This document shows, one piece after another, positions 2,280 through 62,177 of a stretch of 64,000 nucleotides of DNA. The stretch's first letter is position 1, and each line of letters opens with the position of its first letter. The notes under the pieces were generated by a model. The model saw only the letters and a list, made by a program, of their open reading frames with translations, did no database searches and was not told where the DNA came from. Location: assembly GCA_028753945.1 (NCBI GenBank), contig JAPNXP010000004.1:682001-746000 (forward strand), written 5' to 3'. A program made the position numbers and the translations under genes. This DNA is from Hexactinellida sp. DTS-2022. Its lineage: Eukaryota; Porifera; Hexactinellida.

Positions 2280-2590
2280 TCCTGCTTCAGAGGATATCTC
2301 AATATTACAACACTGTTGTGAGAACGTTACGACCTTCGGGAGTGCATGGCCTTGAAAGGACTGTGTGGGTGGCAGTAGGGGCACTACAAGGCTGTAGATG
2401 AGCCAGTAGTACCATGTTAAGGGATACTTGGGCAATACGGCAGTACGCATGGTGGTCGAGGGTTACCCTCTTGATGTGTCCATGAGATGGGAGATTCGAC
2501 CCACATGCATTCTATGATTGAGGTCAGCATAGCGCCAGGTCTTCATACTAGTGCGTGGCCTCATGTCATGACAAGACAATTCATTACAGA
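2280..2590 (+). mobile_element. hammerhead-bearing element, degenerate copy
   Basis: Aligns by eye with each arm of the 15078-15762 element. Shared blocks in the same order are GGCAGTACGCATGGTGGTC (2439-2457), the ribozyme region, a CTTCATACTAGTGCGTGG block and CTCATGTCATGACA near the end. The ribozyme core here has decayed. Only one arm is present, so the element is truncated or solo. Confidence 0.6.
2452..2505 (+). ncRNA. dead hammerhead ribozyme
   Basis: Stem I (GAGGG-TTA-CCCTC) is intact, but the core reads TTGATGT instead of CTGANGA and the GAAA segment is disrupted (GATTCGAC). Stem II would still pair GTCCA with TGGGA. I read this as an inactive relic of the intact ribozymes at 15276-15325, 15567-15618 and 60993-61042. 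Confidence 0.5.
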
Positions 2591-14973: not shown

Positions 14974-15275
14974 TGAATTATATTAAGTCAAATAATTATG
15001 ATGTTCTAAGATCAGCAAATTGAAATTCGTTAAACATTTAGATGAATATTCAGTAGAAAACCTACGAATACAAGTATTGTGACGAGTATCACCTAGAGCC
15101 TTCAGGAGTAGTGTCCTTTGGAAAGGCACTAGGTGGAAGTAGGGAACACTACATGAGTAGTCTGTAGATAGTCCGGCAGTACGACTGGTAACCATAGTCT
15201 AGGACTATGGATACATGGGAAGTATGGTACTCGCAGGAGCCACGGGCTGGAGCGAGAGGTGCGGCAGTACGCATG

Positions 15276-15325
15276 GTGGTCGAGGGTTACCCTCCTGATG
15301 AGTCTCTGCAATGGGACGAAACCAC
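15276..15325 (+). ncRNA. hammerhead ribozyme, intact core
   Basis: Stem III GTGGT/ACCAC; cleavage site GGTC^G after 15281; stem I GAGGG-TTA-CCCTC; core CTGATGA (15295-15301); stem II GTCTC-TGCAAT-GGGAC; then GAAAC. Every invariant hammerhead base is present (C3-A9, G12-A14, C17), and stem I is closed by a 3-nt loop with stem III open (type III arrangement). Self-cleavage is expected for the family but not shown here. Confidence 0.88.
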
Positions 15326-15566
15326 ACACTTAACATCCCTATGGGATGGGGTCAGCTAGAGCGTCTAGTCTTCATACTAGTACGTGGCCTCATCTCATGA
15401 CATAATATCTCCTCCCTATTAATAGGGAAGAGATATTATGTCATGGTCGGCTATGCCGACTAGACTCGCGAGCTTAGGGCTCTGAGGTCATGTCATGAGA
15501 TGAGGCCAAGCATTAGTATGAAGACTAGGCGCTCTTGTTGGCCCCAACTCATGGGGATGTCATATC

Positions 15567-15618
15567 AGTGGTTTCGTCCTATCTCAAGGACTCATCAGGA
15601 GGGTAACCCTCGACCACT
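15567..15618 (-). ncRNA. hammerhead ribozyme, intact core (inverted partner)
   Basis: On the minus strand: stem III AGTGGT/ACCACT (6 bp), cleavage C at 15612, stem I GAGGG-TTA-CCCTC, core CTGATGA, stem II GTCCT-TGAGAT-AGGAC, GAAAC. Compared with 15276-15325 the stem II pairs changed on both sides (C-G to U-A), which is covariation. It lies in the opposite arm of the same inverted-repeat element. Confidence 0.9.
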
Positions 15619-15762
15619 CTTATTGCGCCTCGCGCCAACCTAGTGTCGCTACTAGGTTACCAGCCGTACTGCCGGACTTATGCTAGCAGAGTTACTCATG
15701 CAGCATCCCGTACTTCCACCTACTGCCTTTCCCAAGGACAGTACTCCTGAGGATCCGTCACA

Positions 15763-24433: not shown

Positions 24434-26431
24434 TTAGCTGAGGAAAATTTGAAATGTGTCCACGATTGGAGTTCTGCATGTTGGACAAGTATTTCCCATT
24501 TGTGTAATGGTTTGGGTACATAGCTCACAGAAATTTGCGTGTTTACATGGAAGGAATATCCATGTATTTTCCCGTGCACCTAGACGAACCACACATGAAT
24601 TGAGATTCTGTAACTCCTGTTCTGGCTCTTCTTCACTTACATCCGAATCATCGGAGATATAAACAATAGATGAATCATCTGAAATTGTTTTCGATAATGA
24701 TCGGCTTATGGAGTTCAAAAATTCCCATGGAGTATAGATTCCACTCATGAGTTTTTCTTTACAAGATTTCTATACTCCATGTTGACCCTGACGTGTATTT
24801 TCCTCGATCTAGTAATGTATTTTCCTTGCTCCAATCGAGAGATTTCATTGTAATAATCTGCAATTGTAATATCCGTATCCATAAATTTCAATATTTTCGG
24901 GTGACTTGTTTTGAATAAACATTTTAGACGTGCGTGGTAGCTTTCTGCCCCGTTGTTTGTAACATTTTCTAAATCGAAAATTGATAATTCATTTGATTTA
25001 ACTTGAATTAACCAAGATCTTTTAAAATATGAGAAAGTCATCAAGTTTTAACTTTTCTATCCTTGGTAGTGCTGGAATTTGAAGGAAAGTGTAGGTGGAA
25101 TGGATCAGATCACCTGGTAGGAAGGGAATTGCCATTATTTGCCGCAAGAATGATTCGAGTTCTGTCATATGTCGATGACTTGAGGCCAATCCATATTTTT
25201 GTATGTGTTTCCATATCGCTTGTGTATAGTGGAACCAGCATCCATAAAGTTTGGTTCCTGGGAATCCTGGATAAACATGCTTGAATGCATTCCGTGATCC
25301 TCTTTCCCAATCAGACATTGTGCTTGTAGGTTGTAGTTGAGGAATAAGTTCTTTTATCTTTAAGATTACTGCGGTATAAAGTTGCTCATCTTTATTTGTC
25401 ATCAAGCAGTGTATAGCTGGAATACTGTGTCTTCCAACTGTGAGGAAGATCGTAAACAACTTGTAAAATAGTTTGGAAACAACATACAACGTGCCGTAAT
25501 ATTGAATATCATGGATATTTTCCATTAACGTGAATATTTTTTCAGAGAAAAATATAACCGCTATCCGCTAGTCTAATTTGATAATAGCTTTTAAATTTAC
25601 AACAAAGTTTGTTGTTGGTATCATCTCGCAAAATTCAACTGCAGACTTAGGGAGTCTAGGTTGCGAGTCACTTCTTGCTCTATACATCAGAGGTTCACAT
25701 TCTTTGAAAGTGATTTGATGAGCTGATGGATCTGTCTTAGTAACATTGTTGAATATTTCTCGAAGATTATCCTTAGAAGAGCTTGCCCTTTTCCTGCATT
25801 TAGCTTTTAGCGCAAAAACTTCTGCCTTGTATTCTTCTACATCATGATTACCACATTATAGGAAATTAACGCGCCATGAAATTAACGCGAATTTCTCCAA
25901 ATCTCGTTAATTTCCTTCGCGTTAATTTCATGGAGAGTTAATTTTCTTGACCTTAATTTCCTGCTATTTAGCAAAATTATACAATGGATGGACAAACTTC
26001 CGAGCTACATATTTTCAGATGTGCAACTAGTTTGAAAGGATATACCATGTCTATCAAGTAGATTGGAAGCCTATTTGGGCACAATAATAGTATTAAATCA
26101 GGAGATTAATAAACCTGAAATTTTTTTATAAATTTTACGTTAATTTCATGTATTTGAAAGTTTGCAGCTCCAATTCGCGTTAATTTCATGGAGCGTTAAT
26201 TTCCTTCGCGTTAATTACATGGCGTTAATTTCCTATAATAAGGTATGTTCTGTTTTAGGAAATATTAAATTAACTTCAGGAATCAATTTAGCGGACTCTT
26301 TGCAAGCTTTCCTGAAAAGCACGCATTTTAAGTAGATGTAAGTTGATGTCGGTCGGCTGTTCAAGAAATATTTCTACCCATCAGGGGTGGAAGCAATCTT
26401 ACCTCCCTTGCGATGATATTCTTCAATCTTG
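24434..26431 (-). pseudogene. FLYWCH-MULE-RING transposase, broken
   Basis: On the minus strand from about 26431 it reads MEHKIEEYHRKGGKIASTPDG, then a FLYWCH-like zinc finger (YFLNSRPTSTYIYLKC, FRKACKESAKL). A MITE interrupts (25859-26236). Then follow the MULE N-terminal region (DNLREIFNNVTKTD, MYRARSDSQPRLPKS), a TAG stop near 25570, the MULE catalytic region (RHSIPAIHCLMTNKDEQLY, TSTMSDWERGSRNAFKHVYPG, GCWFHYTQAIWKHIQKYGL), a frameshift near 25035, NVTNNGAESYHARLKC, a second frame change at 24745-24748, and a C-terminal RING-like finger (LPCKHANFCELC, CPTCRTPI) whose second cysteine is arginine (CVVR). It is the coding part of the MULE at 24037-26701. Confidence 0.85.
25859..26236. mobile_element. 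MITE inserted in the MULE, GCGTTAATTTC motif
   Basis: Inverted ends TATAGGAAATTAACGCG and CGTTAATTTCCTATA. The interior repeats CGCGTTAATTTCATGG in both orientations. It separates the zinc finger from the catalytic part of the MULE transposase. Confidence 0.8.
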
Positions 26432-27985: not shown

Positions 27986-28056
27986 GAAGCATTTGATTTC
28001 ATCTGAATTCAAAATGTTTCAATATTGAAACAACATCGTATTGCACACATAGAGAA

Positions 28057-31000
28057 ATGAAATTTGCACCATTCATCCTAATTCTGATAATAGCAGTGTT
28101 ACTGTTACCATTGATGGTAGAGAGTAGTCACAGTCCATTGGAATATGATTTCTCCACTTCCCTCCATCCGAGCTACAATCTATATTGGAACAATCCCACT
28201 GACGGGAAGATATGCATGGCAGTTCAAGTGGACACTCTCGGTTGGGTCGGTCTCGGATTCTCTCCAAACGGAGGAATGATCGGATCTGATATCATGATGG
28301 CTTGGGTGGATGACGGACAAGTTATCATCACAGACAGATTTGCTGAACAAGAGAGTATACCTGTTATAGATAATCAAGCAGACTTCCAGTTAATCGCGGG
28401 TTATGAAGAAGACGGAAAGACTACCATTGAGTTTTGTAGGTGAGTTGGAAATAATTATCCTTTAAAAAATATCATGTTACTTATATACACATTGTATTGA
28501 AATAGGCAACTATTGACTTGTGACGAGAGAGATGTTGAGATTGCATTTGGTGCAGTGAAGCTAATCTACAGTTGGAACGACAATGACCCTATTAATCAAA
28601 TTCCTCTGAAGCACATAACGAGAGGAGTCAAGAGTGTGAAACTGATTGGGACAAGAAAGGGATTTCCAGCAGCTCTTGAGAATTCACAAGAGATTGAATT
28701 TAGAATGGGAAATGTTACAATTCCACACACTGACACGACTGTATACTGGTGTAAGACAATCCCATTCGTTCAACCAGCTACCAAACATCACGTCATTAAG
28801 TTTGGTGAGCTATTTGTATTGCTTTCTTTATGTAGTACGTAGCTGTTGCGTCTGATTTAACTTTTGCTGTAGCTATATCATGGATACTGTTATCAGGCCC
28901 GGCCTTAGGGCAAGGCGACCTAGGCAGGGGTCTTGGGCCCCGCGGTAGTGGCCCCGCACTTCACTGTATATTTAATTGAAATGGGATCAGTACTCTAGGG
29001 TTTAGGCCCCCGAAAACTGTCTAGCTGGCCTTGTGCCTAGGGCCTCGCAAACTGTAGGGCCGGACCTGACTGTTATACCATCTGATTTTAAGTTAACTGT
29101 AGTTTAGTTTTAGAAGTAGTAAAGTTTAAGTAAGCCTTTCTTCTTAATCTATAATGGAGAAATCGTTTATTCTTACATAAGACGTGCCATTTTGGCTCAA
29201 AATATCTTAAAAAGCTTGCTGTGTACTGTCAATCTCTGCAAGATCGAAATTTCAAAGGATCGTAAATGGGTTGTGATCGTTTATCCTTTTTTTAATATAC
29301 CTTTATCAATTCTGATAAAGGTATAACAAAATGTCTAAATAGGGTATATTATCTTATTGATTTTCGTAAATTGAATTTAACAAAGATTTTGAGCTTGTGA
29401 TTCCAAACGGTCCACATAATATTAAGGCTCATACTATGGTTATGAGACAGTAGCCTCAAGGGCCCGCAACAGTTGAGGAATTGTTATAACAGGTTTAAAA
29501 CTGAAATTGTTGTACATCGCTACTAGATTGCTACTTTACATAAATTTTTCGGTTAATTGGGAACTCCGCTTAATTGGGAGAAGAGGCCTGGAAGAAACGT
29601 GGCGTAATTAAGCGATGTAGACTGTATATACTGTATAATATTTTAATATTTTTTTAACAATATTTAGGTGCATACATCGATCCAAGAAATGTGGAACATC
29701 TTCATCACATGATTATGTATCGTTGCGAATCTAGTTTTGCAGAAGTGAGTGCAGATTGTTTCGATTCTGATGGTATAATACAAACATCTGGAGCATATGA
29801 TGATTGCCAAAAATGGGTGGTGAGTGGATGGGCAGTGGGAACAAAAGATTTTGAGTTCCCAATAGAAGCAGGGTTCCCAATTGGCCCGACTGAAACATTC
29901 GACACTTTAATGCTAGAAGTGCATTATGACAATCCTCAATTGAAAGCTGGTATAGTAGATGATTCAGGACTTAAATGGTATTACACGGATTCATTGAGAA
30001 TGCATGATGCTGTAAATCTGCTTATTGGCCATGTTGTAAATACTGCAATGAAAATACCTCCTCAAACAGAATCATTTGTTGTTCATAGTTATTGTCCAGG
30101 AAGTTGCACAAGATCTATATTCACAGAACCTATTAATGTATTTGCTTCATTTCCACATTCTCATAAAGCAGGTGCTTCTATGTGGACACAAATAATACGC
30201 GACAACAAAGAAATCGGATACCTTGATTTAAACCTCAACTATGACTTTAATTTCCAGGCAAGTCAATCTGTATATATGTTAAGGTAAATTCGTGAATTCA
30301 GGGAATTCATGAATTTACTGAAATTTCAGTAAATTCATGAATTCCCTGAATTCACGAATTTACTGTAACATATATATTACAGGCTTGTCAAAAGGTCCCG
30401 CATTGTCAGATTAGGTCAGGTCAGGTCATATATAAAATATTTACATTCAGGTCAGGTCAGGTCTTGGATGGAAAAAAATTCATACAGGTCAGGTCAGGCA
30501 GGTCTTTCACATTCTCAGGTCAATTTCAGGTAATTTGAATAATTTCAGGTCATTTCATGTCAATTTCAGGTCAATTCCAAGTCAATTCCAAGTCAATTTC
30601 AGGTCAATTTCAGGTCAATTTCACGTCAATTTCAGGTACTAGTACTAGTCTTACTATATTAAATTTATATACAGTAGATGTCGGATATAAGTATACATCG
30701 GTTATAAGAACATATCGGATATAAGCACACTGTGTTGGGAAACGGTTGTCATATACTCTGTATAATTTATGTCGGTTATAAGAACATGCCGGTTATAAGC
30801 ACATCAAGTGCTGTTCCCGACGATGTGCTTATAAGTTATAACCGGTTTCCACTATACTACTAGTAAAAAGTGAAGTTTATACAATATACTACAGTAGAGC
30901 ATCAATTTATTAATTGGTGTGGCGTTGATCAGCATTTCCCACCTACTTTTTGCGATGCGCTCATAATTTGCTTGTAGAGACAGACGCTTTAGGGGCGAGA

Positions 31001-32051
31001 TATCAATACTTAAGCGCGTCATTTTATGCAAAATACACTCCATTCTGAAATCAAAACGCGTCAAATGTCATGGCGCGTTTAACGCGCTTTGTGGGAAAGA
31101 GTGGCGTTGATATATCTTAAAAATAAATCCAACCGAGTTGACCCTTTGATAGACTAGGTCCAGGTCAGGTCAAAAAAGTTCAGGTCAGGTCAGGTCAAAA
31201 TAAGTACTGGTCAGGTCAGGTTCAGGTAAAAATCATGCAAGATTAGGTTCAGGTCAAGTCAGATCAGGTCAAGACGTTCAGAAAATAGGTTCAGGTTACT
31301 CAAAGATCAGGTCAGGTCAGGTCATGACCTGACCCTTTGACAAGCCTGATATAATACCCTGATAAGATTAAGTAATAATTTTGTTTTATAATACATATTC
31401 CTATTAAATATGATTGCTTTTTGAATTTAGGGTATCATTGCACATGAAGAGCCTGTAGTTCTACTTCCAGGAGATGATCTTATTTTCAACTGTTTATATA
31501 ACACAGAAGGGAAAACTGAGTTTACATATGGAGGTCAGTCTACACATCAGGAGATGTGTCTCAATTTCCTGTATTACTATCCTAGAATGGATGTTTCATT
31601 CTGTTTGTCTACATACCAAGAAACAACTTCATTCAATGCAGCGTTAGATTCATTCCAATGCAGAAGTATAGATGTGAATGGAAGTACCACACATGAGGAG
31701 TTACAAGCAAGAGCTAGGAATATTAAATGGACAGATAAAATATCAAGGACATTAGAAATGTCATCCATTGTAGACAAAGTACAGGTATACTGTGGATTGG
31801 ATGCAGTCTATAGTGTAAAGCTGCCACTCCCTGGTGTGGACTATGAGGAATTCCCTTATCGCTATGACTCGTGTGGGAACTATAACGGGACTTACTATCC
31901 AGGGGGACACACAGCTGATTACTATTATGACTGTACTACCAACGAACCATACTACCAACCAATAGGCCCCACAGCCTCAGCTCCCTCTCTCCTATCTCTC
32001 CCTGTTATGGTGTGGCTGTTAACTGCTGCTATTCTCTCTCTACTCTACTAG
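28057..32051 (+). CDS. DOMON/copper type II monooxygenase A (DBH/MOXD1-like)
   Basis: Four exons: 28057-28439, 28506-28804, 29668-30257, 31431-32051, totalling 1893 nt (630 residues). Signal peptide 1-22, DOMON domain about 28-140, then the two-domain copper monooxygenase. CuH ligands are HHMIMYRC and EVHYDNP; CuM ligands are HSH (FPHSHKAG) and the Met of EEMCLNF. GYCPGSCTR and YYPRMD also match dopamine beta-hydroxylase. All expected copper ligands are present, so the enzyme is probably active; the substrate is unknown. A Tyr-rich stretch (ADYYYDCTTNEPYYQ) precedes a hydrophobic C-terminus that could be a GPI signal or membrane anchor. Intron phases are 2, 1 and 0. Intron 3 has a GC donor (CAG^GCAAGT). 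Confidence 0.93.
28894..29068. mobile_element. hAT MITE in intron 2 of gene A
   Basis: Ends CAGGCCCGGCCTTAGGG and GTAGGGCCGGACCTG with a perfect 8-bp duplication actgttat (28886-28893, 29069-29076). Confidence 0.9.
30284..30363. repeat. perfect palindrome, 40-bp arms, no loop
   Basis: 30284-30323 is the exact reverse complement of 30324-30363 (AATTCATGAATTTACTGAAA at the centre). Imperfect pairing continues outward to about 30271 and 30377. It lies 26 bp inside intron 3 of gene A, next to the GC donor. The corresponding intron of gene C lacks it. Confidence 0.9.
30380..31348. mobile_element. hAT element with AGGTCA repeats, intron 3 of gene A
   Basis: Ends CAGGCTTGTCAAAAGGTCCC and ACCCTTTGACAAGCCTG. 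The 8-bp duplications atatatta and atataata match at 7 of 8. The interior holds dozens of AGGTC/AGGTCA units at 5-bp and 11-bp periods near both ends, plus a nested MITE (30672-30854). Short sister copy at 34348-34445. Confidence 0.85.
30672..30854. mobile_element. MITE, CGGTTATAAG motif family
   Basis: Flanked by TA. The left end CAGTAGATGTCGG and right end CCGGTTTCCACTA enclose repeated CGGATATAAG/CGGTTATAAG words. It aligns with the element inside the NHL pseudogene (6282-6429). Confidence 0.8.
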
Positions 32052-37062: not shown

Positions 37063-40000
37063 CTAGTAGAGTAGAGAGAGAATAGCAGCAGTTAACAGCC
37101 ACACCATAACAGGGAGAGATAGGAGAGAGGGAGCTGAGGCTGTAGGGCCTATTGGTTGGTAGTATGGTTCGTTGGTAGTACAGTCATAATAGTAATCAGC
37201 TGTGTGTCCCCCTGGATAGTAGGTACCGTTATAGTTCCCACACGAGTCATAGCGATAAGGGAATTCCTCATAGTCCACACCAGGGAGTGGTAGCTTTACA
37301 TCATAGTCATTAGAAGATCCACAGTATACGCTTATCTGGTCTATGATGGATGATATTTCCAATGTCCTTGATATCTTATCTGTCCATTCAATGTTCTTAG
37401 CTCTTGCGACTAGTTCCTCATGTGTGGTACTCCCATTCACACTAACGTTGTTGCATTGGAATGAATCTAATGCTGCATTGAATGAAGTTGTTGCTTGGTA
37501 TGTAGAGTAGCAGTAATCAATATCCATTCTAGGATAGTAATGAATGAAGTTTAAACACATCTCATCTTGAGTAGACAGACCTCCATATGTAAACTTAGTT
37601 CTTCCTTTTGTGTCATACAAACAGTTAGTAATAAGATCGTCACCCGGTTCTATAACTACAGGCTCTTCATTCAGAATATAACCCTGGAGAGTAAAATTAA
37701 GAGAATAAAGTTATAGAGCACATTAGTAGTAGGAGTTAGACTTACTTGACCAAAGATCAATTTTTAAATTAACAAAAATACCTTTATCATTGCCTGAATT
37801 AAATACTAAAAACAAAGCTCTATATAAGTAAATTCTGAAATAAATACTGTACTGCAATAATAACAACTAGCCAAGTGACCCGTCGCCTTGCGACGAATTA
37901 GTCGGCATAAATAGTTAATATCCCAGTTAGCAGTAACCAATAGGATTAGACCTTTAACAATAGGCATATACGTACACTACCCGGACAAAAGTATTCGACC
38001 ACCCAACATTTTCCCATTGAAAATAGTACTATAGTAGGTTGAACAATGGAAGATTGTGTTTTCAAATTACATGAGATATTGATATTTCGATTACAAATTC
38101 GTATTCTGCGCATTCGAATTAACACTTGTAGAAGCTTTCAATTCATTCCCTTTTTGATTTGGTTAAAAATTATCATCCTGTGCCACTATATACCACTTTT
38201 CCCAAATTGCCACTATGGGAGAGATGGGAACTGGTGGCACTTGTTGCCACTTGATGATAATTTCAACCCAATTAATATGTAACAAAATTGAAAGCATCTA
38301 AAATGGGTAATTCGAATGCGTAGAATACGAATCTGAAATCAAAATAGCAGTATGTCATAAGGTTTTATTACTTTGAACAATATTATTAGACCTACTATAG
38401 TACTATTTTCAATGGGAAATGTTGGGTGGTCGAATACTTTTGTCCGGGTACAGTATATGCATATTAGTACAAAAAACAAAATGCTGTATAATTATGGAAC
38501 TAACACCTTTTTGTGGAACCCATTATATTTCCCGAGGTCTCCCTTGCAAGAGCTTTCGATTGATATTTATTTCGTCAGGATCGGGTAATGTAGCAAAGAG
38601 TTACAGGGGCGGACGGACGGACGGACGGACCAAGCTTTCTTAATAATATAGATAATAAATCAATATTTATTTACCTGAAAATTGAAGTCATAGTTGAGGT
38701 CTAAATCGAGGTATCCTATCTCTTTGTTGTCACGTATTATTTGTGTCCACATAGAAGCACCTGCTGTATGAGAATGGGGAAATGTAGCTATTACATTAAT
38801 AGGCTCTGTGAATTTAGATCTTGTGCAACTTCCTGGACAATAACCATTAATTACGAATGATTCTGTTTGAGGAGGTATCCTCATTGCAGAATTTACCAAA
38901 TGACCGATTATCAGGACTCCTATATCATGAGTTCTCAATGAATCTGTGTAGTACCATTTAAATCCCGAATCATCCACTATACCAGTTTTCAATAGAGGAT
39001 TATCATAGTGCACTTCTAGCAAGATAGTATCGAATGCTTCACTGGGACCAATTGGGAAACCTGCGTCTAATGGATACTCGAGATCTCTTGTCCCAACAGC
39101 CCATCCACCGACTATCCCATCGCTGCAATAATACAACGCACCAGATGTCCTTATTATGCTATCAGCACTGTAACATTCTCCATCCATCACTGGAAAAGTA
39201 GTAATACATCGATGCATAATTATGTGATGAACAAATTCAACGTTTCTTGGATCGATGTATGCTCCTAGAATATTTAATATTTTGATATTTTTGAGCTAAA
39301 TTGCTATATTATTGGTAGTAAACGAAAACTATGCAGACTAATGAGTATTCTTACATTTTGTAACAAGTGGTTAAATAATATTTGTTTAGAATACCTTTGA
39401 TATTCTTATATAGTGATGGAAAATTTCCGAATTTCAGAAAATTTCCATCATCTAAAAATATAAAATAAATAGTTTTAAATAATATATCTAATATCTGGAG
39501 TTGTAACTGTGCTCTTGTGATTTAATAAAGGAATTAATCATAAAATTAATATTAGTACAATATCTGAGAAATAACTCACCAAACTTAATGACGTGATGTT
39601 TGGTAGCTGGTTGAACGAATGGGATTGTCTTACACCAGTATACAGTAGTGTCAGTGTGTGGAATTGTAACATTTCCCATTCTAAATTCAATCTCTCGTGA
39701 ATTCTCAAGAGCTGCTGGAAATCCCTTTCTTGTCCCAATCAGTTTCACACTCTTGACTCCTCTCGTTACGTGCTTCAGAGGAATTTGATTAATAGGGTCA
39801 TTGTCGTTCCAACTGTAGATTAGCTTCACTGCACCAAATACGATATCAACATCTCTCTCGTCACAAGTCAATAGTTGCCTATTACAATGCAGTATTATCT
39901 ATCTATCTACCTCTATATTAAAAGTACAATTGTTGTATTTTGTGTGTGCTTGTGTGTGTTTGTCTAGAATAATAGGAAATACCAGTATACTCTAGAAACC

Positions 40001-43000
40001 TGAAAAATTGCATATAGGGGTAATTAAACACGCTGACAACGATTTATTGGTATTCTAAACGAAATAACGGGATTATGACGTCATAAAAGTACATGTATTG
40101 GAATAACTCTTCAGTTTTTATTCGATTTGCCCACAATTTTATATGACAAGACAATATAAAATGACACACGCCTAAAACGATTTACGGGTTTATGACATTA
40201 CGTAGGAACTAATTGCAATTCAGCTCGTACAATTTTAATTCACTCATTACAAAATTTTGTCACAGTAAAAACTATATTTCATTGCATGTCTCTTGTATAA
40301 TTTCCAGATTTAATCTGTGCAAGCACTAACAAAATCTAAAATTACAGCTGTGCTGTCTGCATATTCATTTGGAGGCACTATATTTGGTGGTTCAATGACA
40401 ACAGTGCCTCCACCAGAATGTGTTGTCTGGTTGGAATGAATATAAATGTAACGATCCCTTTGTTCTCGTCAGCTTCGCGATGGATCACTTAACCACTACG
40501 CATTTAGATATATTCGCTAAAATATCTGTATTAAATTTTTTCAACGTCACCACTACACGCAATAATTATTAATCAATTCCCAGTTGAGAAAGTCTTCAGT
40601 ATACGCATTTATCTGTAAGACCCTTTGCCCTCCCTCCATGTACATATAAATTTTCCTCCATTTAACTTTACTAACAACAACAATATATATTCACATCGTA
40701 TATCCGTGCACACTAAATTTGTTATCAATATACGTGTTTACCCATTATAACAATCGTAAGATAGTAAATACTATGTTCAACTTCATTCTGAATCATATTA
40801 ATTTGTTTACCTATTTGTTAACGTCAACAATATGTAAACATAATATAGTTTCGTATATTCGAAATCAGCATACTTGTTTACTTAGAATGACAAAAGGGAT
40901 TAAGTTTATATTTCCAATATAAATGCGACTAAACCCCCTATCACTCTAATACAATTCGGGCACCAAACAGACATGTACAAATATTTCTATAAATAGATAT
41001 TCCATCTCGTTAATCCATTCTTTGAATATCAGAAATCGTTCTGAAATCGAATAACTGTTGAGTGCATTTGAATTTTCATATTATATTATAAATTAATTTA
41101 TAGTAGCAGTTATTGAATCAAATTGAAGTATTCATTTACAATAGTATACTTCATTTTAACTGTGATATCAGAAATCGATTTGTATAGTAATTTCTATCGA
41201 ATGTAAAGTAATTATTCTTCTATACTAGAATTCTTTATTGTAATTATTGATATCAGCAATAACTTTGAAGATAATAACAATGATTCCATTTGAATTATTC
41301 ATATACAGTGAATCTTCCTCATCGAAGCCACGAAATGATTACATACCGTATTTGAATATTAATCATTTTACGATTTTTGCAAAATTGGCATAATGAGTTG
41401 GTACATACTATATTATACGGCTAGATAAGTCAAGTATTTGCCATTTTATTTCCAGGCCAGTGTTTACTTTCTAATTGTTCTTAAAATAAATTACCTATTG
41501 TCATGGAATAAACTAAACTTAGGTTTTCAAATACACTGGAAACATCTAAATACTTTTGAGAATGATTTCTCATCGGATTTAACCACAATGACGTAATCAA
41601 ATATACATACCCATATATTCTGATTGCACTTCCCGAATGTTTAATTTAACTAGAATTTCAATATTCAAATTACATTTAATGTAATTGAATTTAATGTAAT
41701 TGAATTTAATTAATGTTTGAATTGTGAAGACTTAAAATGTCTAAATTAATTAAAGATTAACTATTACAAATAGAAATAGGAATACGTGTAGTATTACGTT
41801 ACTATTGTGAATAATAGAATTGACATCATCATCAACTGTAAAATGATCCAAGTGTTTTCATCGTACTTGTATAAACACATATTCACTTACAACCAATCAA
41901 ATAACAGTCATGCCAGTATTTATGTAATATGTTCTACAGTATCAGTATACTATAGCGTAATTACAATATGGAGAAGATGGCTGATTTATGTAAAAACCGT
42001 TAATAAAACGTAGAATTGATTAGCGACCTATTCATTTTAATTGATACAGTCAACTCCGCTTAATAGAGACACCGATTAATCGGTTTCTCCGCTTAATCGG
42101 GTCAAAATTTCACAGGATTTATAGGACAGAATTACAATTTGGCTTACAATATTTTCGGTTAATAGATTTCTCCGCTTAATCGGGTCAAAACAACCTGGTC
42201 CCGAGGTAGCTCTATTAAGCGGAGTTGACTGTATATAGAAAGAAAATTATTAGGAGAATACAACCTCCATATTTTAAATTGCTAATTAGAATTATCGAAG
42301 AGTAACTAGACCAGTACACAATTTTCGATATAACTGACGAACAAAGACAAAGTTGAGAATTCGGGCTTCGAGGTGATCATCTCCAGGAAATTATCTATTC
42401 CCAGTCTAAATTTAAAATCTCTACCACCAATGGTCTAGTCAGGCGATCGCGTACGGTCGGACGGACGGAACTCTATCAGAACGAATTCAATACTGTGCAC
42501 TTATAGTATAAAACTATAGTAGGGCCCTACAATAACGTTTTTACTAGAAGAAGCACACTAAAAATGAATGAGTTGAATGAGTTGGTACATTTATTTTGAA
42601 TGAGTTGATAGGGAGAAAATGAGGTTTTTTGCCAACTCTAAAAGTCTAAATGAGTTGATACAGCCCTGGGCCAACTTGACATACTTGGCTCCCAAATAGC
42701 AACATTGAATTGAGTAAGTGTAATTTCAAAGTCACAGGTCTAACATATTTATTAAGAGTGATATTTTGAGGAGGGGAAGACGGCGAAGCGGCCGTTAATT
42801 GTGTGTTTAGTGTCTAACACGAACAAACAAAGGTCGTGAAGCGACCTTTGTGAGAGAGTGATCCGTCGCGAAGCGATCGAGACCCAAGGGCTAGTAATTT
42901 AAAAAGAATAATTATTTCCAACTCACCTACAAAACTCAATGGTCGTCTTTCCGTCTTCTTCATATCCCGCGATTAACTGGAAGTCTGCATGATTATCTAT

Positions 43001-43303
43001 AACAGGTATACTCTCTTGTTCAGCAAATCTGTCTGTGATGATAGCTTGTCCGTCATCCACCCAAGCCATCATGATATCAGATCCGATCATTCCTCCGTTT
43101 GGAGAGAATCCGAGACCGACCCAACCGAGAGTGTCCACTTGAACTGCCATGCATATCTTCCCGTCAGTGGGATTGTTCCAATATAGATTGTAGCTCGGAT
43201 GGAGGGAAGTAGAGAAATCATATTCCAATGGACTGTGACTACTCTCTACCACCAATAATAGCACAGCTATTAGCAGAATTAGGACGAAAGGTACAAATTT
43301 CAT
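37063..43303 (-). CDS. DOMON/copper type II monooxygenase B (DBH/MOXD1-like)
   Basis: Minus-strand exons: 43303-42927, 39878-39580, 39264-38675, 37683-37063 (1887 nt, 628 residues). The exon structure and phases equal those of gene A. It has a signal peptide, a DOMON domain, copper sites HHIIMHRC, EVHYDNP, FPHSHTAG and DEMCLNF, and the same Tyr-rich hydrophobic tail. HHI replaces HHM, but that residue is not a copper ligand, so activity is plausible. Intron 1 is 3048 bp (62-66 bp in A and C) and intron 3 is 991 bp (55 bp in C), through Helitron and other insertions. All donors are GT. Exon 1 sits between two long inverted repeats (41760-42465, 43855-44400). Confidence 0.92.
37867..38652 (-). 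mobile_element. complete non-autonomous Helitron, intron 3 of gene B
   Basis: Minus strand: A^TCTATATTATTAAGAAAG, (GTCC)n tract, ..., hairpin CGTCGCAAGGCGACG, then GGTCACTTGGCTAG^T. The TC start, terminal hairpin, CTAG end and A/T insertion site all fit a canonical Helitron. A Tc1-type MITE is nested in it. Confidence 0.85.
37973..38455. mobile_element. Tc1/mariner-type MITE, 65-bp inverted ends
   Basis: Starts TACACTACCCGGACAAAAG and ends CTTTTGTCCGGGTACAGTA, with inverted repeats of about 65 bp (GTATTCGACCACCCAACATT inside). The ends and the TA fit Tc1. The interior has shorter inverted blocks (CATTCGAATTA). A related single end lies at about 50591. Confidence 0.82.
39911..40290 (+). repeat. 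dispersed repeat, partner of 13236-13560
   Basis: CTCTATATTAAAAGTACAAT start, a GTGTGT tract, then the same ordered blocks as 13236-13560. In intron 1 of gene B. Confidence 0.55.
40331..40430. repeat. hairpin family copy 3
   Basis: AAAATCTAAAATTACAGCTG start and GGAGGCACTATATTTGGTGG centre, pairing with CAGTGCCTCC. The outer right arm has decayed. Intron 1 of gene B. Confidence 0.7.
40452..40980 (-). mobile_element. Helitron-like copy, decayed
   Basis: Head CGATCCCTTTGTTCTCGTCA resembles the family 3' end. The core repeats (TATACGTGTTTACCCATTAT, CAGCATACTTGTTTAC) and CACCAAACAGAC tail match the copies at 60300-60760. Confidence 0.5.
41760..42465 (+). repeat. left arm of a long inverted repeat around gene B exon 1
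   Basis: From TTACAAATAGAAATAGGAAT to CCACCAATGGTCTAGTCAGG it is the reverse complement, at roughly 85-90 percent by eye, of 43855-44400. A MITE (42047-42231) is present only in this arm. Confidence 0.75.
42047..42231. mobile_element. MITE, CCGCTTAATCGGG motif family
   Basis: TA-flanked and highly symmetrical: CAGTCAACTCCGCTTAATAG and CTATTAAGCGGAGTTGACTG, with CCGCTTAATCGGGTCAAAA twice inside. Absent from the partner repeat arm, so it inserted after the inverted duplication. Confidence 0.9.
42770..42894 (+). mobile_element. Helitron 3' end with CTAG terminus
   Basis: GGCGAAGCGGCCG hairpin, AAAGGTCGTGAAGCGACCTTT-type hairpin and ATCCGTCGCGAAGCGAT, ending AAGGGCTAG^T. The CTAG end and A/T site support Helitron. 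The 5' side is undefined. Confidence 0.6.
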
Positions 43304-43335
43304 TAGCGAGTAAGAAGATATTGTATTAGCACTGT

Positions 43336-43343
43336 TATTTATA
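43336..43343 (-). promoter_or_regulatory. TATA-like box of gene B
   Basis: TATAAATA on the minus strand 33-40 bp before the ATG. It is closer than in gene A and in sequence unlike the A/C promoter, so it is uncertain. Confidence 0.35.
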
Positions 43344-43854
43344 GTAAAGTGATATCAATACATTTTAAATTTTTAATGCATATATCTATTGACTGTTTAT
43401 TCTAAATACTAGTGTCATTACGTCATGATATAAATTCATATAATATCTGGGCTTACTCATTAAACTAATTGGAATTTGAACAAGTAAAGCTAAGTATATT
43501 TCTTAATACTGAGCAAAAATAATGTGGAAATTCAAAATCAAGACAAAATAAATGCTAATTTTAATAAGGCCCCAGAGATTTATTATTGAATATTCTGAGT
43601 TACACACATATAACATATAATGAAGGATATTTCACCTCATTTCCATCGAAAAGTATATTTGGACCTAATGTTAAATTCGCGAAAAGGCATGAGCTTGAGG
43701 TAGACACGAACGAATATTGCCCACAATGGAGATAATATACATAGACTTATATTTCAAAAAAATTGGCTCATGGTATGGCCGCGCAACAGCTTTGAGTAAT
43801 AATTAATATTTAAGGATATTATATAATTAACGTTAGAAGAATGAAAAACGCAAC

Positions 43855-53770: not shown

Positions 53771-55125
53771 CTAGTAGAGTAGAGAGAGAATAGCAGCAGT
53801 TAACAGCCACACCATAACAGGGAGAGATAGGAGAGAGGGAGCTGAGGCTGTAGGGCCTATTGGTTGGTAGTATGGTTCGTTGGTAGTACAGTCATAATAG
53901 TAATCAGCTGTGTGCCCTCCTGGATAGTAGGTACCGTTATAGTTCGCACACGAGTCATAGCGATAAGGGAATTCCTCATAGTCAACACCAGGGAGTGGCA
54001 GTGTTACATCAAATGGTTGATCTATTCCACAATGAATTTTCATCTTGTTTGAATTTAAAACCGATGATATTTCCAATGTCCTTGATATTTTATCTGTCCA
54101 TTCAATATTATTAGCTCTTGCGACTAGTTCCTCATGTGTGGTACTACCATTCACATCTATATTGTTGCATTTGAATGAATCTAATGCTGCATTGAATGAA
54201 GTTGCTGCGTTATAAGTAGACCCACAGTTAGGGATATCCATTCTAGGATAGTAATAAATGAAGTTGAGACACATCTCTTCTTGGATAGACTGACCACCAT
54301 GAGTAAACTCAGTTCGACTTTTTGTGTTATATAGACAGTTGAAAATAAGCTCGTCTCCTGGTAGTAGAACTACGGGATCTTCATGCAAAATGTAATCCTG
54401 AAACATAAATATATCAATAATATTCAATAGAAAGTATCACATATTATCTTACCTGAAAGTTAAAGTCATAGTTGAGATTTAAATCGAGGTATCCTATCTC
54501 TTTGTTGTCACGTATTATTTGTGTCCACATAGAAGCACCTGCTGTATGGGAATGTGGTAATGAAGCTATTACATTAATAGGCTCTGTGAATTTAGATCTT
54601 GTGCAACTTCCTGGGCAATAACCATTAATTACGAATGATTCTGTTTGAGGAGGTATCCTCATTGCCGAATTTACCAAATGACCGATTATCATAATTCCTG
54701 TGTCATGAGTTCTCAATGAATCTGTGTAGTACCATTTCAACCCTGAATCATCCACTATACCAGCTTTCAATTGAGGATTGTCATAGTGAACTTCTATTAA
54801 TATCGTGTCAAAAGTTTCACTCGGACCAATCGGGAAACCTGCGTCTAATGGAAACTCGAGATCTCTTGCTCCAACAGCCCATGCACCAATTATCCAACTT
54901 TGGCAATCATCAAATGCTCCAGAAGTTCGCATTATGCCATCATAATCGTTACAATTTCCATCCATTGCGGGATATGTAGAAGTACATCGATACATAATAA
55001 TGTGATGAGCAAGTTCGTTTCTTGGATCGATGTATGCTCCTAGAATATTTGTTATTTAATATATTTAGAAATTGGGCTCATTTCCCTGCACACATTTCTA
55101 GAGGGCCACTCGCTACACTCGCTCG

Positions 55126-55156
<31 letters not shown>

Positions 55157-56257
55157 ATTAGTGCAGGGTAATAAAAGTACAGACAGTAATGTGTTCTGCC
55201 TAATAAAAGGCCTAAAGCACGTCAAGAATCAGTTCAATCTAGTTTAAAAGTTAAGTTAAATGAATAGGCAAGTATTTCATGAGTTCACAATAGATAGATT
55301 TCAAGTGATAACAGAGCCCATTCAATTATCCAACAAACTCTTAAAATATGTTGATTCTAAGTTTTAGTTATACTATGTACCATACGTATATATGTAAACA
55401 ATTAGCGAAAAGAAGTACACAAAATTTAGTTATAATTTATTGGAGGAATTATATTCGCATGAAAACCGGGATATATAGCATAAGGGTTGGATACACACAA
55501 TCAGAGAGAAATAGCTCACCAAACTTAATGACGTGATGTTTGGTAGCTGGTTGAACGAATGGGATTGTCTTACACCAGTATATAGTAGTGTCAGTGTGTG
55601 GAATTGTAATATTTCCCATTCTAAAATCAATCTCTTGTGAATTCTCAAGAGCTGCTGGAAATCCCTTTCTTGTCCCAATCAGTTTCACACTCTTGACTCC
55701 TCTCGTTATGTGCTTCAGAGGAATTTGATTAATAGGATCATTGTCGTTCCAACTGTAGATTAGCTTCACTGCACCAAATACGATATCAACATCTCTCTCG
55801 TCACAAGTCAATAGTTGCCTATTTCAATACAATGTATAAATAACATAATATTTTTGAAAAGATAATTGTTACCAACTCACCTACAAAACTCGATGGTAGT
55901 CTTTCCGTCTTCTTCATAACCCGCGATTAACTGGAAGTCTGCATGATTATCTATAACAGGTATACTCTCTTGTTCAGCAAATCTGTCTGTGATGATAGCT
56001 TGTCCGTCATCCACCCAAGCCATCATGATATCAGATCCGATCATTCCTCCGTTTGGAGAGAATCCGAGACCGACCCAACCGAGAGTGTCCACTTGAACTG
56101 CTATGCATATCTTCCCATCAGTGGGATTGTTCCAATATAGATTGTAGCTCGGATGGAGGGAAGTGGAGAAATCATATTCCAATGGACTGTGACTACTCTC
56201 TACCATCAATAATAGCACAGCTACTAGCAGAATTAGTAGGAAGAATACGCAGTTCAT
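53771..56257 (-). CDS. DOMON/copper type II monooxygenase C (DBH/MOXD1-like)
   Basis: Minus-strand exons: 56257-55881, 55818-55520, 55039-54453, 54397-53771 (1890 nt, 629 residues), with the same phases as A and B. It has a signal peptide (LLILLVAVLLLMVESS), DOMON, copper motifs HHIIMYRC, EVHYDNP, LPHSHTAG and EEMCLNF, and a tail identical to A and B. It is the most compact copy (introns 62, 480 and 55 bp) and so likely closest to the ancestral structure. Its upstream region aligns with that of gene A, with an AATAAATA in place of TATAAATA. It is probably active; the substrate is unknown. Confidence 0.93.
55127..55160. repeat. (AAT)n microsatellite in intron 2 of gene C
   Basis: About ten AAT units. 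Confidence 0.85.
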
Positions 56258-56499
56258 TTCTATATATGATGTTGTTTCAATATTGAAATATATTTGAACT
56301 CAGATGAAAACAAATGCTTCTATTTATTCTACTATTTTATTACCAAAAAGCATTTTATCATATCATCACATAATTGAAATCACTGTGCATAATTAGTTAT
56401 CTGTTGTTATTTGTATTTTGTAAGGCAAGATATAACTTCATTACTAATTACAAACTAAATCTAACACTATGTGCGGTATTTTAGAATGGTTTATATATA

Positions 56500-60209: not shown

Positions 60210-60801
60210 CGACATGTCATGAACGCCTCAAGTGTATACACCCATTTATCAAGTTTTTAGGGACAAAGGAACGTTTGATAAATTTCATGCTTCTTTCTAT
60301 CTTAAACCATCTTGAGTTTAAGTTTATATTTCCATTATAAATGCGTTTTAGACCCCCCCTATCACTCTAATTAAATTCGGGCACCAAACAAGCACACAAA
60401 CGAATAGTCATAAACTAGAAATTCCATCTCAATAATCCATTGTTTATATATCAGTTATCGTTTTGAAATTGAATTAGCATACTCGATATACTTAGAATGA
60501 CATATGGGATTAAGTTTATATTTCCATTATAAATGCGTTATAAACACCCTTATCATTCTAATACATTTCTGGCACCAAACAAACCAACAGACGAATATTC
60601 ATACAATAGATATTCCACATCATTAATCCATTGTTTGTAAATCAGTTATATTTGAATATAAATCAGCATACTTGTTACTTAAAATGACAAAAAGGATTTA
60701 GTATTTCTTCCCATTATAAATGTAGTATAAACCCTCCTATCACTAAAACATTTCTTTCACAAAACATTGACAGGCTTGCCGTGGAGATGAAAATCGCATC
60801 C

Positions 60802-61200
60802 ATATTGTGACGATACAGACAGTATCTAGAGCTGTGGGCTGCTAGTACTGATATCGTCTACTCTACAGGAGTGCACACTGGGGTATGTGTGTACATGTGC
60901 CGGAGTCATTATATTGTAAGATAGGAGCTTAGCCTCCGGACCCTACGTCCATGAGCCAGCCCCCACCTTACAGGATATAACATATTGTATGTGTGGTTTC
61001 GTCCTATCACAAGGACTCTTCAGGAGGGTAACCCTCGACCACGCCTATTGGTTGGCTTCCACCGTACTGCCGTGCCACAGTGTCTTCCTAACACTACACC
61101 GTACTGCCGCTACACACATACCCCAGTGTGACCCCTGTAGAGTAGACGATATCAGTACTAGCAGCCACAGCTCCAGATACTGTCTGTATCGTCACAATAT
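60802..61200. mobile_element. ribozyme element with about 90-bp inverted ends
   Basis: Left arm 60802-60893 (ATATTGTGACGATACAGACA ... GGGGTATGTGTGTA) is mirrored by 61111-61200. The centre carries one intact hammerhead (60993-61042, minus) and two CCGTACTGCC words like those in 15078-15762. There is no open frame of note and no clear target duplication. Confidence 0.8.
60993..61042 (-). ncRNA. hammerhead ribozyme, intact core
   Basis: Minus strand: GTGGTC^GAGGG-TTA-CCCTC, core CTGAAGA (the variable N7 is A), stem II GTCCT-TGTGAT-AGGAC, GAAACCAC. All invariant bases are present and stem III is 5 bp. Confidence 0.88.
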
Positions 61201-61318
61201 CCATAACCAGACAATTTTTTGTAGATATCCATTGATTGGATGTTGGTAGATTTCTAACACCTAATATCAACAAAATATCCAGAACATTTAGGTTCTATAA
61301 TTTATATACAGTCAACTC

Positions 61319-61645
61319 CCGTTATAACCAAGTCGGATATAACGAAGTACCTGCTGCCTATAACGAAGTCATTCAATGGTTCGGAAATTTTTCTATCTTA
61401 TTACATTATTAAAACTTCGGTTCCCACGAAATGGATATAACGAAACTCCGCTTATAACGAAGTGATTTAAATCCCATATAGCCTCTAAGGTCTAAGCTAT
61501 TGATTTTGCTCCGGTTATAACGAACTCCGGTTATAACGAATTCTGCTTATAACGAACTCCGGTTACAACGAAATTAAACTTGTAATGAACTCTTTTTAGA
61601 TCGAACTCCGCTTATAACGAAATGAGAAAAATTCGTTTCGGTTAC
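61319..61645. mobile_element. MITE, GTTATAACGAACTCCG motif family
   Basis: TA then CAGTCAACTCCCGTTATAAC. About ten TATAACGAA words follow, several as CGGTTATAACGAACTC. The right end is unclear. Confidence 0.65.
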
Positions 61646-62177
61646 TTTGTATTTTGACCTTTTTGACGTCACTAAAGGTCAAAATCAACTTCTTTTAGAA
61701 TAATAAGGCTAGTAAATAATTTTATCAGATGAAATAAATTAGGCGTGTAAAAGATTAAGTCTAGTAAAATAGAGGCAAGTAAACCAATTGGGGGAGGACA
61801 AAAAAAGCTAAGGCTTCTTAATTTTCACACCCATTTTTTAGAACCCTGGTTTCAAATGGATATCCAGTATTATCCACAATATCCATGGATTTGACAAAAA
61901 CTTGATATCCATCCATGGATATCTCCATGGATATTAATATCCACGGCAAGCCTGATAAGCGCCCTGGCGCTTATATTTTTCTTGTGGAGCATACCTAATT
62001 TCTGGAACAGAACGGCATGGAACGTTTCCATTCCGGGAAAATTAAGTACTAAATTACGGAACGGGATAGCCACCCAAGGTATTGGTTATTCTATATTTTA
62101 ACGACATTTGGTCTTACATCCTGAAATACAGTTTTTGCAGCTAAAGGTGTTCAATTGTGAAGATATATTGAAACAAA
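61646..62177. other. intergenic with ATCCATGGATAT repeats
   Basis: No gene; 61856-61945 has repeated ATCCATGGATAT/GGATATTAATATCC palindromes. Confidence 0.4.

Follow-up and report, generated by a model that had tools for sequence, protein, structure and literature searches.

We analyzed a 64,000-nucleotide stretch of the genome of Hexactinellida sp. DTS-2022 (contig JAPNXP010000004.1; "the window" below means this whole stretch) and compared all 4227 Rfam families with it using Infernal. Three matches to RF00008 (Hammerhead_3) exceeded the gathering score of 48.5, all with type III topology and the catalytic core, and a relic was recovered at a looser threshold (Table 1). For the ribozyme of the finding, reading of the sequence placed the cleavage C at 15281, CTGATGA at 15295-15301 and GAAA at 15318-15321, exactly as a preliminary description had it, and its three stems are also as stated there: stem III pairs 15276-15280 with 15321-15325, stem I is GAGGG/CCCTC closed by a TTA loop, and stem II is GTCTC/GGGAC with one G-U pair. 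The covariance-model hit that the description had named as one check was obtained above the gathering score, and its reading of an intact hammerhead motif within a short dispersed non-coding element is supported by this match and by the anatomy of the carrier, which, as had been proposed, contains no coding region (15078-15762 is overlapped by no stop-to-stop frame of at least 90 aa). Beyond that description, we observed that the carrier is an element of LTR-retrozyme type bearing type III ribozymes and that it is an inverted LTR pair with a second ribozyme on the opposite strand, the latter scoring higher than the first (63.9 vs 53.7 bits, Infernal). The third ribozyme has the core CTGAAGA, in which the changed base is N7, a free position. 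Folded in isolation, 15274-15327 has the hammerhead as its minimum-energy structure, at an ordinary energy (z -0.8; equaled by 43 of 200 shuffles), and cleavage would be expected after C15281.

Table 1. Retrozyme-related features of the window (coordinates count from its first base)
Feature	Positions	Strand	Remarks
Decayed 3' half of an LTR, hammerhead broken	2438-2573	+	blast of LTRs
Whole element: subfamily A LTR, first internal part, inverted subfamily B LTR	15078-15762	.	ends TGTGACG / CGTCACA
LTR 1, 325 bp, subfamily A	15078-15402	+	316/325 identical to L027 LTR
Type III hammerhead of the finding	15274-15327	+	RF00008, 53.7 bits, E 4.4e-9 (whole window)
Post-LTR hairpin	15396-15445	+	15396-15411 pairs with 15430-15445, last 7 nt of LTR included
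First part of internal region	15403-15490	+	compared with L062 and L052 by eye
Short stem-loop GAGC-loop-GCTC	15470-15482	+	by eye; GGAC/GTCC version in L065
Inverted LTR 2, 272 bp, subfamily B	15491-15762	-	257/272 identical to L003
Second intact type III hammerhead	15566-15619	-	RF00008, 63.9 bits, E 5.7e-12
Hammerhead relic, under gathering score	35018-35071	+	RF00008, 43.1 bits, looser threshold
Second element: inverted U3 ends of ~90 bp, one ribozyme	60806-61196	-	duplication ATAT, 60802-60805 and 61197-61200
Third type III hammerhead, CTGAAGA core	60991-61044	-	RF00008, 56.6 bits

The host is marked as an animal by its proteins: the genome encodes a fibrillar collagen C-terminal domain (COLFI, E 1.7e-28), which we take to be an animal domain, and integrin beta (ten matches, best E 3.7e-60), and the window itself contains exons for DOMON and copper monooxygenase domains. 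No chlorophyll-binding protein was found in the genome; a search of it for wnt gave no match, which does not show absence. The frames for DOMON and copper type II monooxygenase (DBH/MOXD-like) lie on both strands at 27997-32051, 37063-39898, 42923-43354 and 53771-56299, two of them scanned with Pfam and the others alike by eye, and apparently form a local gene cluster.

The element at 15078-15762 lacks the rest of the internal region as well as a polypurine tract, and it shows no target-site duplication, since its flanks (GTAT and TCAC) differ. An origin from two separate insertions was checked by inspecting the flanks, which revealed no duplication around either LTR individually. Alignment of the two LTRs gives 208 identities over 268 aligned positions and 61 gap columns, so that they represent two subfamilies. 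An extended rod is the predicted fold of a transcript of the element (z -30 relative to 20 shuffles), as expected because the element is palindromic. With one ribozyme per strand, a single cut would be possible in each transcript, so that no circle could be released. The second element, at 60806-61196, is overlapped by one stop-to-stop frame of 109 aa.

Comparison of copies from elsewhere in the genome revealed that the hammerheads of the window lie within LTRs with TG...CA ends, which belong to small LTR elements devoid of coding sequence. The aligned copies share a sharply bounded unit, TGTGACG, hammerhead and CATCTCATAACA, which is 325 bp long in one subfamily, and the other reference LTRs measure 231-330 bp (two of them cut one or two bases off the true ends). 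The family has LTRs of about 230-330 bp, each with one type III hammerhead, and an internal region of about 150-200 nt. An exact 4-bp target-site duplication flanks 16 of the 23 complete single LTR units, counted as those that align to a reference LTR from end to end, give or take 2 nt, and excluding L067, L072, L019 and shorter matches. Among the remaining units, four match at three of four bases and three at two of four, and one of the latter (L016) gains an exact duplication once both ends are shifted by 1 bp. Direct two-LTR copies are also present: L066 (834 bp; LTRs identical at 329 of 330 positions; duplication AGTA), L052 (684 bp; 5' LTR truncated; duplication GTAG) and the first 811 nt of L032, which have the order LTR-internal-LTR with LTRs identical at 324 of 325 positions. 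Both direct LTRs carry a type III hammerhead over the cut-off in L066 and L032, and in L052 one LTR ribozyme is over the cut-off and the other was recognized by pattern only. Two direct ribozyme-bearing LTRs therefore occur in the family, and both window copies are inverted. A polypurine tract lies just before the 3' LTR, reading AAAGGGAAGGTGA in L032 and L066 and AAGGGGGGTGA in L052. Ribozymes on the same strand are spaced by 486 nt in L032 and 504 nt in L066, and the 486-nt RNA of L032 has a better predicted fold than all of 100 shuffles (z -7.7). By eye, a stem-loop of the form GAGC-loop-GCTC or GGAC-loop-GTCC, seemingly conserved with covarying stems, recurs in the internal regions of L062, L052, L066 and L065, at 15470-15482 of the window and near 60933.

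We further searched the genome (112.4 Mb, 18 contigs) for ribozyme copies and obtained 68 matches to RF00008 at E <= 0.001, 64 of them above the cut-off; the count is a lower bound, because it contains the 15566 copy and misses the two other ribozymes of the window. The copy set comprised the stretches around all 68 matches and 12 further places from a DNA search, in which 40 of 382 candidates were scored and at least 65 matches emerged. A relaxed pattern identified 90 ribozyme copies in the fetched stretches and the window, 60 of them distinct, and GUC, CUGANGA and GAAA were all kept in 86 of the 90, a fraction biased upward because the copies were chosen by their core. Across all stems, 893 of 960 cells are paired (shuffle mean 859, maximum 873; 1000 shuffles); stem II shows paired changes from C-G to U-A, and stem III pairs more weakly at its outer end. 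When 18 retrozyme loci were scanned with Infernal, L064 and L072 had no match above the cut-off, and LTRs that have lost the ribozyme are under-counted because copies were picked by ribozyme or LTR similarity. An exact scan of IMG/VR with a 25-nt ribozyme stretch returned 0 matches.

The position at which an LTR element would be expected to have its primer binding site is occupied by a hairpin, formed by the end of the LTR together with the bases that open the internal region. It was found with internal sequence following it in six loci (L032, L038, L062, L065, L066 and 15078-15762), in which the terminal LTR bases are paired over a 12-19-nt loop. Over 15 pairs and six loci, 98.9% of 87 cells are paired, compared with 24-60% in slid controls. 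Six of the 15 pairs are altered on both sides (0-1 in the slid controls), although the arms of the six hairpins come in just three sequences and one of the five measures taken, the count of further pair types, is ordinary (141 of 500 shuffles). When the retrozyme internal regions were compared with the 3' ends of 40 tRNA genes, out of 45 found, no tRNA primer site exceeded the level of shuffles. With a hairpin in place of a tRNA primer site, the family is thus a variant of the LTR retrozyme and not a plain member, and the hairpin probably serves self-priming.

A link to Ty3/gypsy elements emerged from the junction of polypurine tract and LTR start, AARGGGAAGGTGATGTKA, which has six exact matches genome-wide: three in L032, one in L066 and one each in L074 and L075. 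At up to two mismatches the pattern gave 53 matches vs 37 when read backwards, and therefore only the six exact matches were used. In L074 and L075 the matches mark the start of an LTR, so that a polypurine-tract/LTR junction of 18 nt is shared exactly with the retrozymes. L075, an element of the Ty3/gypsy type, has LTRs identical at 186 of 187 positions, a duplication ATGT and, in separate frames, matches over the cut-off to protease, reverse transcriptase, RNase H and the integrase zinc-binding domain, with a weak match to the integrase core under the cut-off. Its reverse transcriptase precedes its integrase, as in Ty3/gypsy, and its first frame matched nothing in Pfam. L074 is related but diverged, with 80-93% identity in pieces. 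Neither carries a hammerhead over the Infernal threshold. The 16 nt after the L075 LTR include an exact 14-nt complement to a stretch inside its own LTR, and L075 therefore looks self-priming. The primer arrangements of the retrozymes and the gypsy element differ, and no sequence common to the two was found beyond the polypurine tract with LTR start and a short LTR 3' end noticed by eye. L075 may nevertheless act as a helper of the retrozymes.

Eight inverted pairs of whole or partial LTRs were identified (L017, L032, L039, L040, L062, L063, 15078-15762 and 60806-61196), leaving out L060, L064 and L013, whose inverted structure is partial. An exact 4-bp duplication surrounds the whole inverted unit in six of the eight. 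Those of L032 (CTAT) and 60806-61196 (ATAT) are exact at the ends first set; that of L017 (CGTA) appears after the ends are shifted to TG..CA, that of L040 (TGAA) with ends read by eye, that of L063 (ATAC) around the inverted unit, and that of L062 (ATAC) requires a mutated first dinucleotide. L039, like 15078-15762, has no duplication around its inverted unit. The post-LTR hairpin is the turn-around point in L017, L032, L040, L063 and L064. Given the duplications in six of eight inverted pairs, these elements were probably palindromic before insertion.

Taken on its sequence, the locus is an animal variant of the LTR retrozyme with a real hammerhead motif, one that appears to insert also as inverted pairs. 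We consider it likely, with a probability of about 0.82, that the hammerhead belongs to an animal family of LTR retrozymes, that is, small non-coding LTR retroelements moved by Ty3/gypsy enzymes. In the scheme that we propose, an LTR-internal-LTR copy would be transcribed, and its two same-sense ribozymes would excise an RNA of one LTR plus the internal region, about 490-500 nt, which may then be circularized. A Ty3/gypsy reverse transcriptase would copy this RNA, and an integrase would insert the product with a 4-bp duplication. Since the two arms of the hairpin, which lies at the position of the tRNA primer site, repeat the LTR end in opposite orientations, a growing LTR strand could snap back or anneal to another copy and be extended into an inverted LTR. 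Such a molecule would have two U3 ends that integrase accepts, so that palindromic elements could insert like normal ones. The LTRs of two subfamilies in 15078-15762 would be expected from a switch between two templates or from later recombination, and its sequence fits the one as well as the other. A bolder extension, which we offer as a tentative idea, is that palindromic cDNA is a regular, integration-competent product, with the hairpin itself priming reverse transcription; the family would then spread in a normal and in a two-headed form, the latter in some cases bearing hammerheads on both strands, through a built-in snap-back route, as an animal counterpart that arose or was gained apart from the plant LTR retrozymes.

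The inverted pairs could instead have formed after insertion, by chromosomal recombination or by insertion of a second LTR next to the first, unrelated to reverse transcription. The unmatched flanks of 15078-15762 (GTAT/TCAC) and its LTRs of two subfamilies, identical at 208 of 268 positions, are what recombined old insertions would leave, and L039 is also without a duplication. Such an origin is nevertheless rather unlikely, because exact 4-bp duplications enclose the entire unit in six of the eight inverted elements, the sequence of five loci (L017, L032, L040, L063 and L064) reverses at the post-LTR hairpin, and neither LTR of 15078-15762 has a duplication of its own. The palindromes might also be assembly artefacts of fold-back long reads. 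The near-perfect ones, L017 with arms identical at 231 of 231 positions and L032 with repeats 98-99.8% identical, could be products of assembly, but arms are diverged elsewhere (241/265 in L063, 208/268 in 15078-15762) and duplications lie at both outer ends in six of the eight pairs, which makes this an improbable account.

Both window elements have inverted ends and no recognized coding region, as would a foldback or MITE-like DNA transposon that carries a hammerhead by chance. Against this stand the polypurine tract and TG..CA ends, and the reading is largely refuted by the 23 complete single units without an inverted second LTR, the direct LTR-internal-LTR copies and the junction that matches a gypsy element, leaving it very improbable. 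Least credible is a non-LTR retrozyme or a Penelope-like element, although this is the usual setting of animal hammerheads in the accessible portions of two reports (PMC7229834, PMC7761336): the ribozyme is of type III instead of type I, and the LTRs, polypurine tract and 4-bp duplications refute such an identity.

Type III hammerheads are associated with LTRs in plants, and type I hammerheads without LTRs are found in animals, according to the available parts of the literature (PMC4918200, PMC7229834, PMC7761336, PMC11722881). In animal settings, excerpts describe type III hammerheads in HDV-like circular RNAs (PMC7761336) and in the discontinuous Clec2 ribozyme (PMC6155905). No animal LTR retrozyme was found among the titles and abstract starts listed from the open-licence PMC literature, nor was a joint mention of hammerhead ribozymes and Porifera found in open-licence PMC literature. 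As far as the accessible text of the plant study extends (Cervera 2016, PMC4918200), the present family resembles plant LTR retrozymes in being non-coding and in having one type III hammerhead per LTR, 4-bp duplications, a polypurine tract, solo LTRs and Ty3/gypsy-like ends, the plant retrozyme ends likewise matching Ty3/gypsy. The plant LTRs are given there as 300-400 bp. The differences from that account are the animal host, the inverted-LTR forms, the hairpin with no tRNA site found where the plant elements have a tRNA-Met primer site, and the smaller unit, with ribozymes 486 nt (L032) and 504 nt (L066) apart as against 697-776 bp in Jatropha. With the animal non-LTR retrozymes, as portrayed in the accessible part of PMC7229834, the family has in common an animal host, a hammerhead, the absence of coding sequence and a structured RNA. 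Those elements are described there as having type I ribozymes in tandem repeats, RNAs of 170-400 nt and longer duplications, with no LTR, polypurine tract or primer site; our family, with type III ribozymes, LTRs and a polypurine tract, does not share this definition. The bivalve TRIMs (PMC6934838) are, in the portion available, similarly miniature LTR elements of animals with no clear tRNA primer site and with internal inverted repeats, and the main text of that paper never uses the word ribozyme. The self-priming Tf1/Tj1 elements, in the excerpted account (PMC4600332), have a primer site complementary to their own RNA, as proposed here for L075; they are autonomous elements of fission yeast for which that excerpt mentions no ribozyme, whereas the retrozymes have a local hairpin instead.

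An animal family with a plant-like layout breaks the division drawn in those accounts between LTRs with type III hammerheads in plants and non-LTR elements with type I hammerheads in animals, and shows that type III hammerheads are not joined to LTRs in plants alone. The hairpin at the primer site and the duplication-flanked inverted pairs make self-priming and palindromic cDNA directly testable. Moreover, the genome contains DNA from which structured RNAs bearing ribozymes on both strands could arise, an arrangement otherwise familiar from viroid-like RNAs.

Several further observations concern the surroundings of these elements. Ribozyme copies at L046-L050 and L056-L059 lie within longer duplicated segments that are 88-99.9% identical over 0.6-1.7 kb, and segmental duplication may thus have spread some of them. 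By eye, the 60806 element may sit in another repeat, 60776-61960, with inverted ends GGCTTGCCGTGG... and ...CCACGGCAAGCC, and repeats of the type TATAACGAAGT occupy 61330-61640. A frame with a MULE transposase domain was found at 24434-25855, with a RING finger frame nearby on the minus strand. Finally, two microRNA precursor families were matched at 30267-30383, far below the cut-off and in one case on both strands; this stretch is probably a hairpin repeat.
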